The notes beneath the pieces are model-generated. The model did not search any database. It was given only the letters and a program-made list of their open reading frames with translations, and had not been told where the DNA came from. Made by a program: the position numbers and the translations under genes. From Chromera velia (lineage: Eukaryota > Sar > Chromeraceae), in contig JAHBMJ010003647.1 of NCBI GenBank assembly GCA_018398765.1, forward strand, positions 22,501 through 55,121: DNA of 32,621 bases. The letters are read 5' to 3'. How positions within the stretch are numbered: position 1 is the first letter of the stretch; each line of letters begins with the position of its first letter. Positions 3,408-29,205 of the stretch are shown here, one piece after another.

Positions 3408-4085
3408 ATGCACAGACCGACCGAGACAGACGAGGATCATGAAGATCAAAGCCAGATCCCTAGCTGTTTCTCGGTCAGTCTAGCTTCACTATGCACTATG
3501 CCTCTACCCAGAGTCCCCCCCCCCCNNNNNNNNNNNNNNNNNNNNNNNNNNNNNNNNNNNNNNNNNNNNNNNNNNNNNNNNNNNNNNNNNNNNNNNNNNN
3601 NNNNNNNNNNNNNNNNNNNNNNNNNNNNNNNNNNNNNNNNNNNNNNNNNNNNNNNNNNNNNNNNNNNNNNNNNNNNNNNNNNNNNNNNNNNNNNNNNNNN
3701 NNNNNNNNNNNNNNNNNNNNNNNNNNNNNNNNNNNNNNNNNNNNNNNNNNNNNNNNNNNNNNNNNNNNNNNNNNNNNNNNNNNNNNNNNNNNNNNNNNNN
3801 NNNNNNNNNNNNNNNNNNNNNNNNNNNNNNNNNNNNNNNNNNNNNNNNNTGTACCCGGGAAGGACGCTGCCTGTACCCGCTTCTCTTCTCAACCCCCTCT
3901 CCCCCTCCACCCCCCTCGCCCAGCAGCATCCAGTTGACAGCGGGAGGCAGTGCACGCAGCCTCTGGCCCCCAAGAAAGCTGTGCTCAACGAGGAAAGAAG
4001 TGAACACAACCAGAGGCCAAAAGCCCCGCAACCCCCCAAGGAAAAGCCGAAACCGCCAACTTTAGCTGCCAGGCGAAACAACTGA
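3408..4085 (+). CDS. Hypothetical protein gene interrupted by an assembly gap (tentative)
   Basis: Two pieces look like the ends of one gene. The first exon would be 3408-3473: ATG after AAA, then 22 residues rich in Asp, Glu and polar residues, ending at a TCG|GTCAGT donor in phase 0. The last exon would be about 3924-4085, after a strong pyrimidine tract and CCCAG acceptor, also phase 0. It encodes a basic, proline-rich tail with PKEKPKPP near the end and a TGA stop at 4083-4085. Any middle exons fall in the run of N at 3526-3849. Donor style and phase match the better-supported genes here. I do not recognise a family. The two ends could belong to different genes, or the first exon could be spurious; the terminal exon is the more credible half. 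Confidence 0.35.
   Translation: MHRPTETDEDHEDQSQIPSCFSVSLASLCTMPLPRVPPPXXXXXXXXXXXXXXXXXXXXXXXXXXXXXXXXXXXXXXXXXXXXXXXXXXXXXXXXXXXXXXXXXXXXXXXXXXXXXXXXXXXXXXXXXXXXXXXXXXXXXXXXXXXXXYPGRTLPVPASLLNPLSPSTPLAQQHPVDSGRQCTQPLAPKKAVLNEERSEHNQRPKAPQPPKEKPKPPTLAARRNN
3515..3849. other. Poly-C run and assembly gap (324 N)
   Basis: A C11 homopolymer at 3515-3525 runs directly into N at 3526-3849. The assembler probably failed at the homopolymer. The N count may be an estimate, so distances across this point are uncertain. Confidence 0.98.
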
Positions 4086-6141: not shown

Positions 6142-7982
6142 AGTAAGTTGTTCTCATTTCTCTCAAACTTCTTCGATTCCTCTTTAAGCGTGCACATGAA
6201 CAATCCTATCTGCCTCTTTGCCTGCAGTGTCTGCAAAAACTCAATCAGGCGGTGGTTGTGGTTGCTTCAACTTTGGAAAGAAGAAAAAAGTCAGTCAATT
6301 GATTGCAGGTGCAAGATCACGTGTCTCTTCTCTGCAGCCGTTCACTTTTGCTGGCCTTTCTTCTGCCCTTGCAGGCCGCTGCTGTCGAAGAGGAGCCGGC
6401 GTGCAGGGAGGAGCAAGTCGACCGCTCTGCCGGGGTGCTCTGTGCCCAGCAGGCCGCAGCGCCACCTGCAGAGACGGAGACGGAAACTGGGAACAGGTCT
6501 GGAGAGAGCAGCAAGCTCCAGACTCCCGCAGTGACGACTGTGGACCCTTCCGTTGCTGCTGACACAGCCTGCAGTCCTGACCGTGGTGTCACTGACAACA
6601 GGCACACACAGGAGGAGGGGGGAACGAGAGAGGAGAAGGAGCACGATGAAGGGGAGGTTGCAGATGAAGCTGTGAAGAGGGGGGAAGATGCTGCGCCTGT
6701 GGTGTCTAAGCCTCAGGGCTTTGCCGCGTTGTTGTTTTCTGCCTTCACCTCCCGATCTCTCACGTTTGAGAGAGAGCCGGCAGACCCCGCACCTCCTGCC
6801 GCAAGGGGGGGTGAGGAGACAGAAGAGAAGGAGGTAGCAGAGACGAGAGAAAGGGGCTTGGCCTTGTCGAACGAGGAAGCACACGGGGAGGGGGGGAAAG
6901 CAGAGGGTGCAGCAGAAGAAGCAGGCGCCCCTCCTGCAACAGAAAACGACCAGAAGGAGACAGAGAACGATGCCAAGCCTGAAACTCCGACACGCCAAAC
7001 CACGGTGATGCAGATTGTGTCCTCAGTTGTCGAGAGTGCAATAGCCGCAGTGAGAGGGAGACCTGCCCCCCCTTCCTCCCCCAACCTCCCGCCAGAAGGC
7101 GCTGCTCCCGCCTCAGTCGAGACAGAGGCACAGGCAGAGGCAGAGGAAGGAAACAGAGACGCACCTGCCCCCGTAGAGAAGAGGGCACAGGAGGTGCAGC
7201 AGGAGCAGAAGAGGGAGGAGGAAACGAGGAATATTGGAGGAATCACGTTTCCTGTTTTTGAAGAGGCCGCCAAAACTCAACCAGAACAAATTGAGCCGAC
7301 CACCTCGGATGGTCTCATGGGGACCTCTGAAGAAAAGGAAAAAGAGAAGGAGAGAGAGGAGGCAGTGGAGAGGGAGGTTGCTGCAGCGATGCTGTCGACA
7401 GAGGAGAAAGACGCCCAATCCCCAACCACCCACAGCCGCGCTGTTCCCTTCCCTGTCCCTGTCCCTTCCCCCAACAACGAGCGAGAGTTACCGTTGACTG
7501 CTCAGACAACGGATGCCACTGCACACGGGGACCATGTGACCGAGGAATCCGACAGAGATGCACCCCCTGAAGATAAAGACATTGCGATTACCCCCCCAAA
7601 GACGAAGCTCGCCAAGAGGGTCTCGTTCGCAACCCCTGTCGTTCCCTGTCGGGAGGTTGAAGAGCTCGAAAAGGCTGCAGAAGAGGACGAGGTGGAGGCG
7701 ATAGCGAATGCTGCTGTCCGTCTCAGCGCCGAGATGCCCTCCGAAGATCAGAACGCAGCTGCTCTCGCTGAGGCTGCAAACAGCAGTAGCAGCAGTAGCA
7801 GCACCGCTTTTGCGGTTCTGCGTGCGAACTCAGGAACATCGGCTGGGGGGAAGAGTCTGGCCTCATGGGCGGAAGTAGGAGATGACTTCGACACTCAGAG
7901 CATGCGTTCGTTCGTTGACGGTGCGGACAAGAGAGAGGACATCAAGAGGTGGCAAGATATGCTCGATCTGGGCACTTTATGA
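6142..7982 (+). CDS. Acidic disordered protein with Cys/Lys-rich N-terminus and RVSF (PP1-docking) motif
   Basis: Proposed coding parts are 6142 (the A of ATG), 6228-6289 and 6375-7982, giving about 556 residues. A strong donor at 6143 (GTAAGT) follows that A. The acceptor at 6226-6227 restores ATG and the reading MSAKTQSGGGCGCFNFGKKKK. The second intron (6290-6374) is phase 0, GTCAGT to TTGCAG. The CGC motif next to KKKK looks like a lipidated, membrane-binding N-terminus. The rest is Glu/Ala/Pro-rich and probably disordered, with two possible amphipathic helices (near GFAALLFSAFTSR and TTVMQIVSSVVESAIAAVRG). Residues 436-439 are RVSF preceded by Lys/Ala, the classic RVxF docking motif for protein phosphatase 1. 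A Ser run follows near 7785, then a more ordered C-terminus ending KRWQDMLDLGTL. No enzyme domain seen. Alternatively, translation starts at 5926 and adds 72 residues, since that frame is open through the first exon; the composition there looks untranslated. Confidence 0.65.
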
Positions 7983-21002: not shown

Positions 21003-21417
21003 TCACCAGAAGAAGTGTGTGCGCTCTGCGTGGGAGATCATCTCACTTGGGTCAAATTCCTGAGAGCAAAGGGGAAAGGGAGGGGGGGCACAAGGGCATG
21101 CGTCAGAGATTTGTAGAGAGGAGTTCTAGAGTAACAAGGAGCTATGCGGAACGGGGGGAGGAGGGGGAAGGAGTTTGGGATGCCGGGCATACAGAAAGAA
21201 TGGGACGCTTCTCTCTCTTGCATTTCTCTGTGTCTTTGCAAACAACACGGCTCTCTTCTCTTGCCAGTGTGTTATCCAGCCATCCTCCGCTGCATCGACT
21301 GGCGTGTATTCGCCCGTCACTCAGTGACACAGAGACCCCAGACGAGACACACAGCAATCCTTGAAGAGACCACGAAAAGAAAAGGAAAAAAAAAAAACAA
21401 GCAAGAAAGCCGGGAAG

Positions 21418-21448
<31 letters not shown>

Positions 21449-24400
21449 CAAAATGACAACCCCTCTGAGTTCTTCACAAAGAAACGATCACTCACTCACT
21501 CACTCACCGACGGGTCTGCAACGTTCCGGAAGCGGTTGACAGGGTCAGCCAGCAGAGGGGCGTGCAGAGTCAGAGGACCCCAAAGGTCTTCAGCGAGATA
21601 TTTGACGTTCCAGACGACCCGAAGGTCTCTGAAGTTTTTCATCTGATCAACCACTGCATCCGCAGCCTCTCTCTGGCTCTTTGGACGTCTCGACTGATGT
21701 GCGAAGATGCAGAGGAGCTCAAGAAGGTAGTCAGAGGGGGTGTAAAGATCCCCGCTCCACGCCTGCTGAGACCTCCACCACTTCAGCAATCGGATGGTCA
21801 CCTTCACACACCCGGGTTGTTTTCCCACAAACGCGACCTCCTCCTTCACTAGAGACGGTCGGAGAAAGGGGCGCTGGGAGGGCGGCATCTTGTCGAGGAC
21901 TGCCGAGGCTTCCTCAAAGGTTTCGAAGAAGGGCACGGGGAAGAGAGCGACCTCCATGCCGCCACGAGTAGTCACCACCACCCTGTCAGGCTCTGCGCGA
22001 ATCGCTACGACAGCCACCCAGGCAGCCGAGGGGACTGATAGGGAGGCTGCGAGAGATTTGCACAGAGGGGGGAGCCACTTGAGGAAGTTGGAGGGGGGGA
22101 GGTTTTCGACTGCGATGACAAGGTCGGTAGATGCACAGCCGCTGATGGCAGTGCCCTTGCCGACGTTACCAGCCTTGACGATCTCGCGGATGCGGAGGCA
22201 GGAGTGCCGGACCACCCACTGAAAGGAAGGAGGGGGGGGAAGAGAGGAAGCACAACGGGAGGGAGGGAGAGAACACACGCAGAGGAATACAATTATGAGA
22301 GAGGCCCCCTTCATCAAACCCTCACCCACTGAACCAACCCTGCAAAACAGATTGAAAGGACAGGAGGGTAGAGGAATGGACTCGAGAAGACAAAAATAAA
22401 AAGAAAAGGAATCTTCAATCAATCAGATAATTAAAGAAAGAAAAATCGGGGCGCGGAGTGGGAAAAAAGGAGAAAACGGTGCATGGAGCATCGCAAAGAC
22501 AGATGATGATGCAGGGCGGGTGCTTGACTCTGTTCCTCTCAAAACTTTATTTCTTCCTTCAATTCCTTGTTTTCTGTGCTGTCGTTCTGCCTTTCCCCCC
22601 TCTCTCTGTCTACCAGTCTGTCTATCTGTCTTCACACCACCATCACCCATTTGTCTCCCTTCTGCTGACCTCTGCGACTGCCGAGGCAGTCTGTGCAGAT
22701 CTCGAGTTGAATGCTCGGGAGGAAATCGTTGTGTGGAGCTCTGTGAATAGACGGTCCGCCTTCAAACACGCTTCCCTCTGCCTGATCTTCTCTTGTTGCT
22801 TTTCCTCCTTGCTCATCATACCTGCTGTGGCAGCCTGCACATCCCTCTCCTCCTCCTCCTCTCTCTGTTTCCTGCCCACCTCCTCCCTCTGCCTCTCATT
22901 CTCATGCTGTCTGGTATCATTTGGAAACCGGTCTCCAGAGAAGCCGGGGGGGGCACGGAAAGGGGCGGGATGGGGGTACAGTGGGTGGAAGGCATTCACA
23001 CCGAACGTCTCCTCGTCCTTCTGTCCGAGCCCCCCACCCACCCCCGGGACGGAGAAAAAACGGAGAGCAGAATCGGGAGGGCGGGAAAGAGGAGCAGCGG
23101 GAAAATTCACGTCTGCTGAAGTGGACTGATCAAGGGTGGGAGGCGGCTTGAAGATGCGGACACCTTCACCTGTCACCCGAACGATGTCACCGTTTTCTTC
23201 ACCATCCGCGTCCGCCCCCGTCTCCTCTCTCTCCTGCTCCTTCCCTTTCTCACGTCTCTTGCTCTTTCTGGGCCCCCGTCTTCTCAAACGCATCTTCTTC
23301 TTCTTCCCCTCCTCAGTGCCAAAACCAGAACTGTCAGAAGAAAAAGAGCCCACTCCCCCCATTGGACTCTCCTCCCCCCTCCCGCTCGTGGTCCCGCTAC
23401 CAATCGTTGTTCCACTTCCCCTGAACAAACCATCAGAATCATCCTCATCCTCCCCCTCTGAAACCCCAGAGGAGAGGAAACCCGCATCAAAGAACGTTGG
23501 CACATCACCCCTGTCACTCCACTCCTCTGTCCCTTCTCCTTCTCTCTCATGAACTGGCACCCCGCGACGAGGAAAACCGTAACCGTAGAAACTGTCCTCC
23601 TCTTCCTCCTCTTCTCCGTAGCACCACCCAGGTAAGGGGAGGAAGGCTCCCCCCTCGGCTCCCCTGCGATCTCTCGTGTGTGTCTGGCAACTCGCTCTCT
23701 GGTGTGGCAGCTGCCCTTCTACCCCTTCCTCCTCTTCCTCACACCCCTCTTCGTCCTCTCCGGAGTCAGAGGGAACGGGGGCAAGCAGAGAAGAAGCGTT
23801 CGGGCCATGCGGACGGCTGGCGTGGGCATAGGGGGACAGCATGGGCACGGGGACTCTGTTGGAAGAGACCCCGGAGAGAAGAAGGAAGAAGTCGGAATTG
23901 GACGCAGGAGAGGCCGCAGGGGACGCTAGAGGTTCGGGAACGGCGGTGGTTGAGGGGGGCGGGTGCCGGTGTGCAACCTCGCTGGGGACACTCAGAGAGA
24001 TCGCAGGTTTTGCCCTCACACATGAAGGAGACTGCATCGGAGTGGGTCTCTTTTTCCTGCTCGCTCCACCAGATTTCCCCCCCGGAGGTTCGGCTGCTTT
24101 GGAGAGAGGCGAGCCTGCTGGAGCTGCCAAGCCGTCTGATGGTATGAGGGAGAAGGGAAGGGCACGGGTGGAATGCGAAACTCCTTTGGACCCCCCCCCA
24201 AGGCCAGAGGAGAAGGGTCCAGGGACAGAAGGAGGAAGAAAGGGGCTGGCGGTGACTTGGAGGGGGTCCACGTTGGTGTTGGCAGAGGAGGAGAAGGTCG
24301 GGGGGGGAGGGGGAGGCTCGGATAGAGCGTCAGGGGAGTCGGTGGCTGTTCGATCGGATGGTGTGACCGTTCTGTTTTCTTCACTTCCCCCTTGGAAAGG

Positions 24401-25432
24401 GACGTGCAGGCCGGGAGGGGGTGTGAGAGGGCCGGAAGCGGTTTTGTTGGTTGCCTGGTGGAATGAAGGGAAAGCCTCGATGTCGGTCAGAGGGGGAGGT
24501 CCGTTAGTGGAGTGTTTCTCGTCGTCTGCAGGAAAACTAGGGGCCCCATTTGCGACCGACCCCTCTCCCCCTGCTGCTGCGAGAGGACCTGTGCGGACGG
24601 AATAGGAAATGCTGGCGGATGATGTGCGTGAGACTCTCTCAGAACCTCCAGTGATTGCAGACTGAATGGAAATTGAGTTTGTGCTCTTCGTCGGCGCTCT
24701 GCTGTGCACTTTTGGTCGGTACGTTTTCGTGAAGGTTTGAGGCACGCTCTGTTCGTCTGCACACTCGGGGGTGGTGTTTTTGGAGTTGCTGCTGCTTTTG
24801 CGAATGTGAGTGAGTCCTCCAGCTACTCCATTGCCATTCTTCTTCTGTTGATGCTGCACAGGCGGAGCGACAGAGACAAAGTCTCCATCCCTCTCCAGTG
24901 TCTGCATCAAGTTTGTCGAGTTTGTCTGAGAGCTGCGGTCTGCTGCCGAGGAATCGAGATGGTTGGCGGTTTCGTTTGCGGTTCGGGCGTTCGCATGAAG
25001 AGGCGGAGGGTCTCCTGGTTGGTTTGGGCTGCTGTCTTTGTTGAGAATCTCGAAAAGGCGGTTGGCAAAAATGCTTTGAGAAGGATCGCAGTCGATGTTG
25101 TCAGTCTTGTTGGACGAGCGCTGCGGATCGACAAGAAGTCAAGAGAGACAAATGGAAAGGGGCGATCGGGAACAAAAACAAGCCAGAGACGTACCGAAAT
25201 TGTGCCTTTTCTATTTCTTTTTTGTTTGAACAACACCCAAGCACAACAGCAAGCAAGTCCCAAAGAGGAAAAAGCGAATAAACAATACAAAGCCGAAAAA
25301 GAGGCACGCACCCAGGCAGAGGAACCAGGGCATGAAGGGAAACATTTCACTCACCTTTCGGAGGGAGAAATCTGGGTTGGGGACCTTGAAGACCCCGCAC
25401 TCCCCTGACTTCCTCCTGCCTGGAGTTGACAT
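21003..25432 (-). CDS. OAS-like nucleotidyltransferase with ~840-residue disordered N-terminal extension
   Basis: Minus strand exons 25432-25355, 25120-22670, 22218-21508 and 21059-21003, all joined in phase 0, give 1098 residues. Introns use GTGAGT, GTCAGC and GTGAGT donors. Residues 27-760 are Ser/Pro/Gly-rich and probably disordered, with an acidic Glu run near 480-495 and a strong Lys/Arg-rich nuclear-localisation-like stretch near 630-655. Residues ~760-843 are a charged helix. Residues 844-1098 match the OAS family: KAGNVGKGTAISG (858-870) aligns with the G-S-x-G-K-G-T loop, FVGKQPGCVKVTIRLLKWW (973-991) with FVK-x-x-P...LIRLVKHW, YTPSDYLLELL (1002-1012) with the LELL helix, and ADPVNRFRNVADP with DPADP-x-x-N. 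OAS enzymes make 2'-5'-linked oligoadenylate on double-stranded RNA. Here the first catalytic Asp is Ser873, the second is Asp875, and the third appears to be Glu932, so activity is doubtful. DZF proteins (ILF2/NF45 type) are the other candidates. Head to head with CCT6. Confidence 0.8.
21421..21448 (+). repeat. (GA)n microsatellite inside intron 3 of the OAS-like gene
   Basis: Fourteen GA units, preceded by an A12 run near 21388. It lies in the intron 21507-21060 and reads as pyrimidine on the transcribed sense strand. Confidence 0.93.
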
Positions 25433-26411: not shown

Positions 26412-29205
26412 ATGGCTGTCAACGCACTTAATTCTCGTGCGGATGTCTTGAAGAAGACAGCAGCCCTTGCTGTGAACTGCAATGCCGCCAAGGGTCTCGA
26501 GGAAGTTTTGAAAAGCAATCTAGGGCCGAGGGGCACGTTGAAGATGCTGGTGGGAGGTGCAGGGCAGATCAAGATCACTAAGGACGGTAACGTCCTCCTC
26601 CACGAGATGCAAATCCAACACCCAACTGCTGCGATGATCGGGAGGGCCTCCACTGCTCAGGATGACATCACAGGAGATGGCACAACTTCCAATGTCATCC
26701 TCATAGGAGAGCTCATGAAACAGGCAGAGCGACATATCGCAGAGGGAGTGCACCCCCGGCTCCTCTGCGAGGGGTTCGACCTCGCCCGCACGAAGACTCT
26801 GGAGATTTTGGACAAATTCAAGACACCCATCGATGTGGAGGACAGGGAACTGCTCACATGTGTCGCCAGAACATCCCTCTTCACAAAGCTCCAGGTGGGC
26901 CCAGGCTCTTTGCTTCTTTCTTCTTTTCCTTTTGTTTGCCACTTCCTTCCTCTCTAGCTTTTCCAAGGGACTTCCCTCCTCATGTTTCCCCATTTTTGTT
27001 TGATTTTCTTTCCTCAGTTTCAACTTTCCCTTTCGTGCTCGACCTTTTGTTTTCGCGTTCCTGCTTCTCGTCTTTTTTGGCCTGATGATGGAAGGGTGGA
27101 CTGACCTGGTATGTGACCGAAAGAAAGAATACGAGACTGACTCACGTGCACTCGATCCATTCTGTCTCCTCCCTGTCCTCTCTGCAGAAGGAACTCGCCG
27201 ACCGTGTCACCGACATGGTCGTGGATGCAGTCCGCTGCGTGCGTCAGGAGGGGGAGCCCATCGACCTGTTCATGGTGGAGATGATCCATATGAGGCACAA
27301 GCTGACCAGCGAGACGCGGCTGGTGAAGGGCCTGGTCCTTGACCACGGCTGCAGACACCCGGATATGCCTAGGGGATTGAAGAAGGTCCTCATCCTCACC
27401 TGCAACGTCTCTCTGGAGTATGAAAAGGCAGAGGTGGGTATCGCTGTGATGTATTTCGGTTCATCGCTCTTTTCTTTGAAAGCATAAGAGGGAAGGGTCC
27501 GTCGTGCGGCAGTTGACACGGACCTGCTGAGAATTGAGGTTGGAGACGGAACACAGTGTTCATTATTGCTTCTGTATTGCTTCTTTTTCCTTTCTTCTGA
27601 AGGAGTGAAGAAGGGCACATTCTGAGGCTTACGATCTTTTCATTCAATTTGGCGGTATGTGTGGATGAGAGCAGCGTGATCCTGTTTTGGATTCATCTGA
27701 CGTCTCGCTTTCTTTCTCTCTCTCTCTCTATCCCCCTCCCCCCTCTCCCCCCCCCTCCTCTCTCTATTTCACTCTCTGCGTGTGTGCGTGTGTGTGCATG
27801 TGTAAGTTTGGCCCTGAGTTTGATCACTCATTCGCTTGCCTCTTTGTGCAGGTGAACAGTGGATTCTTTTACTCGTCAGCCGAGCAAAGGGACAAGCTGG
27901 TGATTGCAGAGAGAAAATTCACCGACGAGAAGGTCAAGAAGATCATCGACCTGAAGAGAAAGGTCAGGAAATCAGGCAGGGAGGCAGTCAAGTCAAGCAG
28001 ATGGCAACTTGTTAAGAGCAGAAGGGTGGGGCCAGGAAGAGAGAGAGAGAGAGAGAGTTTTGCCTCCGTTCCTGTTCTTTTTTGGGGAAGCAAGATGTAC
28101 AGAGAGGGTCTTTTTCTTCACTCCGGCGGTCCTGCTGATTTCCGTTTTCTCTCCACAAGGCAGTCCATCCCTTGGTCGTTTCGTTTCTTTCGTCCGTTTT
28201 TTTTTTTTCACATCGCACACCACCCCCCTCTGTCCATTTATTTATTTGCAGGTGTGCACTGAGGAGAACGGGTACTCGTTCATCGTGCTGAACCAGAAGG
28301 GAATCGACCCCCCCTCTCTGGACATGCTCGCAAAGGAGGGCTGCATGGCACTCAGAAGGGTGAGTGGGTAGACGGGTGGGTGAGATCGGTATTTATATGT
28401 AGGAGCTCGGGTGATTTCAGTACCAAGATAGTCATCTGCTTCTGAGCCAAGTGCACCGCTTTCGAAGGAAAATCGGGATTGTGTTTCCCTTTCATGTGAG
28501 TGTGTCTCTTTGTGTGGCGTTGGCTGCTCACTCTTTCCGGCGTGTCGGACATGTCTGCCCTTTCTGTTAAGACAGCGGAGAGATGCCTGCGAATTCGTCA
28601 ACATCCATAAAACGCATTTTTGGGACGAAGTGACATTGCGCTTGTCTTATCTGTCTAGTTGCTACTCTGCGTTCTCCCGTTCCGAAAGTCTCCGTTGCCT
28701 GTTCAAGGGGAAAATGGGTGGAGAGGAGAAAGCTGACTGTTTTATTTTTGGAAGCGTGATACAAGCTTTGAGTTTTTTGTTTTCTCTCCTTCCTTGTTTG
28801 TGTTTGCATTGCAGGTGAAGAGAAGGAACATGGAGCGTCTCGTGAAGGCTTGCGGTGGGAGGGCCGTGAACTCTGTGGAGGACCTCGACGAGAGTGACCT
28901 TGGATACGCAGAAACGGTCGGTCGTTTGGAAAGGGGCAGATTGTTGTGGCTTCTATTTCTTCCTTCTTGCTTCTTCCTTCTTGCTGCTTCCTCTCCGCGT
29001 GCTTGATTTTTTCTTCCGACCCTGCAAAGTCTCCTCCAATTTTCCTGCCTGCCTGCCTGTCTGTCCACTTGTCTGCCTGCCTGCAGGTCTCGGAGGAGAC
29101 TCTGGGAGACGACAAGTACACTTTTGTGGAGGGAGTGAGACACCCCCAGAGCTGTACCATCCTCGTGAAGGGCCCCACCGACCACGCTATTGTACAGGTC
29201 CGTCC

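Follow-up and report, generated by a model that had tools for sequence, protein, structure and literature searches.

A predicted pseudo-nucleotidyltransferase of the OAS superfamily with a long N-terminal arm in Chromera velia

What might an OAS-type nucleotidyltransferase do in a single-celled alga when its metal site has changed? The question is raised by a minus-strand gene (locus C3426) within a 32,621-nucleotide stretch of the Chromera velia assembly GCA_018398765.1 (contig JAHBMJ010003647.1, positions 22,501 to 55,121; hereafter the window). A sequence-only reading had described it as an OAS-like gene with an 840-residue extension and a rewritten catalytic triad. We consider it probable that the gene encodes an OAS-superfamily pseudo-nucleotidyltransferase with a disordered arm of about 800 residues, which would act as a binding module in an RNA-protein assembly.

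Family assignment and gene structure

Membership of the window protein in the OAS superfamily is well supported by profile searches and, with a model of moderate confidence, by fold. The OAS signatures noted earlier are indeed present in the right order (GNVGKGT, FVGKQP..IRLLKWW, LLELL and DPVNRFRNVADP), and the nucleotidyltransferase core combines a GG-x-x-GKGT loop with the OAS fold. Pfam OAS1_C (PF10421) matched the protein at 34.7 bits (cut-off 19.9; E 1.7e-8) and, with an E limit of 1, all four members of the Chromera family (the strongest at 6.9e-10), while HHalign of the window domain against four OAS domains gave a probability of 99 and E 4e-18. Searching with the window domain alone returned OAS2 (6.3e-11) and then six more sequences, all of the OAS family (2e-5 to 0.002). 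The four-member profile found OAS2 (6.1e-31), three porcine OAS1 sequences (3.5e-17 to 3.8e-17), human OAS1 (3e-15), OASL (3.3e-14) and OAS3 (2.5e-13), followed by weak matches to E. coli CdnC (0.0034), NF45 (0.005 and 0.02) and NF90 (0.48 and 0.49) and lastly one kinase fragment (0.93). Weak matches to CBASS cyclases from PADLOC and NCBIfam fit the placement of OAS inside the bacterial clade C CD-NTases given by Culbertson and Levin 2023 (PMC10732462).

In the predicted domain model the sheet is five-stranded and A934 lies on its final strand. The model comes from a second AlphaFold run (A9), the first (A6) having been poor (predicted local distance difference test 51); the alignment behind it, picked after trials, omits one misaligned C1785 exon and three short C690 exons, and two of its rows keep short misaligned tails. 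Folds were compared by a second look with VIA-align at Foldseek's list. Motif order, N-terminal helix, five-strand sheet and C-terminal helical lobe all resemble human and porcine OAS1 (PF10421), although OAS1 has no counterpart of the N-terminal arm.

Two other assignments were rejected: DZF_N (PF07528) reached 12.1-12.2 bits against a cut-off of 27.1, and Pfam gave no support for the Mab-21 domain (PF03281) of a cGAS/Mab21 protein. Neither DZF_N nor Mab-21 matched anything in the genome, but neither did so in any of 14 control genomes, so that absence is not demonstrated. These comparisons bear on a doubtful alternative in which the paralogs are pseudoenzyme heterodimers like NF45/NF90, with OAS-like domains that pair and arms that recruit partners. 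The sequence is much nearer to OAS than to DZF, the NF45 and NF90 matches being far weaker (0.005 and 0.48 at best) and DZF_N staying below its cut-off, and residues 1-799 gave no Pfam match up to E 1, including no double-stranded RNA-binding domain or zinc finger.

The presence of OAS in a single-celled eukaryote, earlier thought unusual, is already known: the main text of PMC10732462 reports that 8 of 12 eukaryotic supergroups hold homologs with an OAS1-C domain. That main text, supplements aside, does not mention Chromera, Vitrella, 'active site' or 'pseudo', and a literature search joining Chromera with oligoadenylate found nothing.

The gene consists of four phase-0 exons, each of a length divisible by three, which together encode 1098 residues, and all three introns start with GT and end with AG. 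Exon 1 (25355..25432, residues 1-26) starts with ATG, and its open frame ends at a GTGAGT donor. Exon 2 (22670..25120, residues 27-843, an 831-codon open stretch) encodes the arm followed by the opening helix of the OAS fold, exon 3 (21508..22218, residues 844-1080) the nucleotidyltransferase core and OAS1_C domain, and exon 4 (21003..21059) residues 1081-1098 and the stop, with the same FFW end as paralog C690. The helix at the 3' end of exon 2 (22670..22762, residues 813-843; SSRAFNSR) shares 48% identity with paralog C3577 (E 1.4e-4) and aligns with C690 and, in the family profile, with the N-terminal helix of OAS1; in C3577 it closes a 728-codon frame immediately before the OAS exon. Because exon 2 ends in an OAS-type helix and C3577 has a matching arrangement, exons 2 and 3 appear to belong to one gene. 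The exon model, the joining of these two exons and the positions of S873, D875 and E932 thus stand as first stated, and so does the long arm, though not its full length: since about 30 of the 843 residues preceding exon 3 are already part of the OAS fold, the arm measures about 800-810 residues and not 840.

Catalytic site and RNA groove

The codons of S873, T874 and D875 (22123..22131) form the D-x-D site. In all three MAFFT modes the D75 column reads S/S/D/D in the window protein, C3577, C690 and C1785, respectively, and the D77 column D/E/E/A; judged from the alignments, the first catalytic Asp is lost in the window protein, with Ser873 in its place as had been proposed. For D148, which we take to lie on the last strand of the OAS sheet, two MAFFT modes give T/E/E/E (window T926, also the choice of HHalign) and one gives A/S/R/F (window A915). 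Our preferred equivalent is A934 (codon 21946..21948), a position to which neither HHalign nor any of the three MAFFT modes points, because the OAS sheet is reported to be five-stranded (PMC4446440), the fifth strand of the model holds A934, and the window G-M-E-V-A-L-F-P resembles the OAS1 G-V-E-F-D-V-L-P, identical at G, E and P (a G-x-E-x-x-x-x-P match). By strand count E932 would correspond to OAS1 E146, and in alignment columns this register places R at D148 in C3577 and C690, with C1785 left unassigned. The proposal that E932 is the third carboxylate has to be given up: neither HHalign nor any MAFFT mode puts it at D148, and it is not conserved, its column being Ser/Gln/Ser in C3577, C690 and C1785 (alignment A1).

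An active 2-5A synthetase requires three carboxylates (D75, D77 and D148), and the window protein has S873, D875 and a residue that is non-acidic under every register tried (T926, A915, A934); a single D148A change is reported to abolish OAS1 activity (PMC13372824). We infer with fair support that the third carboxylate is lost, so that 2-5A synthesis would be absent. A catalytically dead protein, as suggested earlier, is well supported by these residues for the window gene, and less so for C690. It is unlikely that the protein is an active nucleotidyltransferase whose rewritten metal site uses D875 together with E932 or another acid: D875 is kept, E932 lies only two residues from A934, and the equivalents of R210, K213 and Y230 are invariant in the four members, but no alignment tried yields three acids in the window protein, the first Asp is Ser in every MAFFT mode, the E932 column varies among the paralogs, and loss of D148 alone inactivates OAS1. 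Less probable again is that C690 is the active enzyme and the window protein its regulator or decoy, since C690, which has D and E at D75 and D77 and gains a third acid at D148 in two of the three MAFFT modes, would carry Arg there by strand count.

Several observations weigh against a non-catalytic module that binds RNA. The register at D148 is uncertain, with Glu placed there in all three paralogs by two of the MAFFT modes, and under the T926 register C690 would hold the full acid set of D, E and E. The OAS1 and NF90 rows are partly tied in the fold comparison. The R210, K213 and Y230 equivalents, retained in 4/4 members, are residues that we take to contact ATP, and their retention would be consistent with binding of a nucleotide or with some activity, although a literature search on Y230 and K213 found no paper on this. 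The groove differs as well (numbering and roles as given in PMC11359028, PMC4446440 and PMC13372824). In the same order of members the columns are V/T/V/V at R195, G/A/S/S at K199, K/R/R/N at the neighbouring Q200, G/G/G/A at T203, C/C/Q/H at K204, E/E/E/D at K57 and R/R/V/K at S56. The K60 equivalent is basic, and K66 and E233 are kept, in all four, so that of the basic groove set K60 and K66 are basic in 4/4 and R195 and K199 in 0/4. With R195 and K199 non-basic, K57 acidic and K204 replaced, OAS-style binding of double-stranded RNA is not well supported by these columns, even with the mostly basic Q200 column, and the R195-K66-E233 switch of OAS1 could not be expected to operate identically here.

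The double-stranded RNA function of OASL is reported to rely on a basic groove of R45, K66, R196 and K200, with K63 (PMC4446440), whereas the window family lacks equivalents of R196 and K200 of human OASL (PDB 4xq7); the additional part of OASL consists of two C-terminal domains, whereas that of the window protein is N-terminal and predicted to be disordered. The first domains of OAS2 and OAS3 are inactive OAS domains, and the best PDB match was OAS2 with domain I as its best stretch, but these are fused to more OAS domains, whereas the window family has one OAS-like domain per modelled gene.

Paralogs, arm and genomic surroundings

The family comprises four loci, the window gene and the paralogs C3577, C690 and C1785, and a search of the genome (177.8 Mb, 4040 contigs) with each member recovers the same four (best E 0.064 or lower per search), other matches (C3121, C751 and C1867) lying at E 1.3 to 2.7. 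Human OAS1 as query found the window gene alone (E 0.43) and missed the three paralogs, and PF10421 detected 2/4 copies, and none in the 14 control genomes; an intact intron-rich OAS may therefore have escaped detection. A SMODS match at C1264 (E 0.21) was rejected, being under the cut-off and showing no nucleotidyltransferase motifs in the C1264 frames, and the family profile matched 9 stretches in viral_contigs and 50 in genome_contigs, none of which encoded a relative. As modelled, the four OAS-like domains contain no internal stops, and the proportion of nonsynonymous differences across the six domain pairs is 0.39-0.54 against 0.74 with shuffled codons; because of this the copies do not look like decaying pseudogenes. 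The synonymous proportion (0.66-0.74) is at saturation, which precludes a true ratio of nonsynonymous to synonymous rates. In C690 a Ser/Thr/Pro-rich insert of about 100 residues lies in frame within the OAS-like domain, in a single open stretch (L010 6261-6560). C1785 has long low-complexity frames downstream of its domain (L011 6713-8957) that contain PPG-hydrophobic motifs and the tract KKNKRRKAKKK, and its arm may be C-terminal.

The window arm (residues 1-799) is rich in Ser, Pro, Gly and Glu, from which composition it is predicted to be disordered. Runs of acidic residues occupy 481-491, 529-535, 583-587 and 780-784, and a basic stretch around 632-649 would be compatible with nuclear import. 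Outside the terminal helix shared with C3577, the arm does not convincingly resemble that of either C3577 or C690. PPG-hydrophobic motifs, presumably of the GYF-domain ligand type, occur twice in the window arm (residues 261 and 750; shuffle p 0.013), once in that of C690 (0.025) and not in that of C3577, an enrichment too weak to be used.

Elsewhere in the window, the first part of a gene for a TCP-1/cpn60 chaperonin subunit (26412-26957, plus strand; PF00118, 5.1e-48) runs divergently from the OAS-like gene, with about 1 kb between their starts. The plus strand also carries a mechanosensitive ion channel beta-domain frame (9-932; PF00924, 1.6e-8) and a Glu/Ala-rich open frame of 559 codons (6303-7982) with zero Pfam matches at E 0.001. 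A run of unread bases (X in translation) lies within a frame at about 3520-3850, and Rfam gave zero matches on the window at gathering scores. Genome-wide, profiles matched light-harvesting proteins (PF00504, n=58; also in 1/14 controls, a cyanobacterium) and alveolin repeats (PF12314, n=14; also in 1/14 controls, Caulobacter), from which we take the genome to be that of an alveolate that photosynthesises.

Possible role of the family

For the pseudo-nucleotidyltransferase that we favour, the OAS-shaped C-terminal domain, stripped of metal-binding residues and without 2-5A synthesis, would serve to bind RNA, a nucleotide or another OAS-like paralog, while the acidic and basic tracts of the arm may tether it to a nuclear or cytoplasmic RNA-protein assembly. 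Such a binding or scaffold role is suggested by the precedents of OASL and the DZF domains of NF45/NF90, whose mode of action it may resemble. A broader proposal, which we regard as speculative, is that photosynthetic alveolates own a family of pseudo-OAS scaffolds, without the triad in the preferred register, mutually pairing, RNA- or nucleotide-binding and tethered by their long disordered arms, which would make them an independent equivalent, outside animals, of OASL and NF45/NF90.

The inactive OAS relatives that we found in the literature are vertebrate, and nothing was found there on OAS gene function in protists. If a small gene family of a single alga retains the fold under constraint while losing the metal site, this would suggest that non-catalytic reuse of the OAS fold extends beyond animals, and would offer a testable case of nucleic-acid sensing or scaffolding without second-messenger synthesis.
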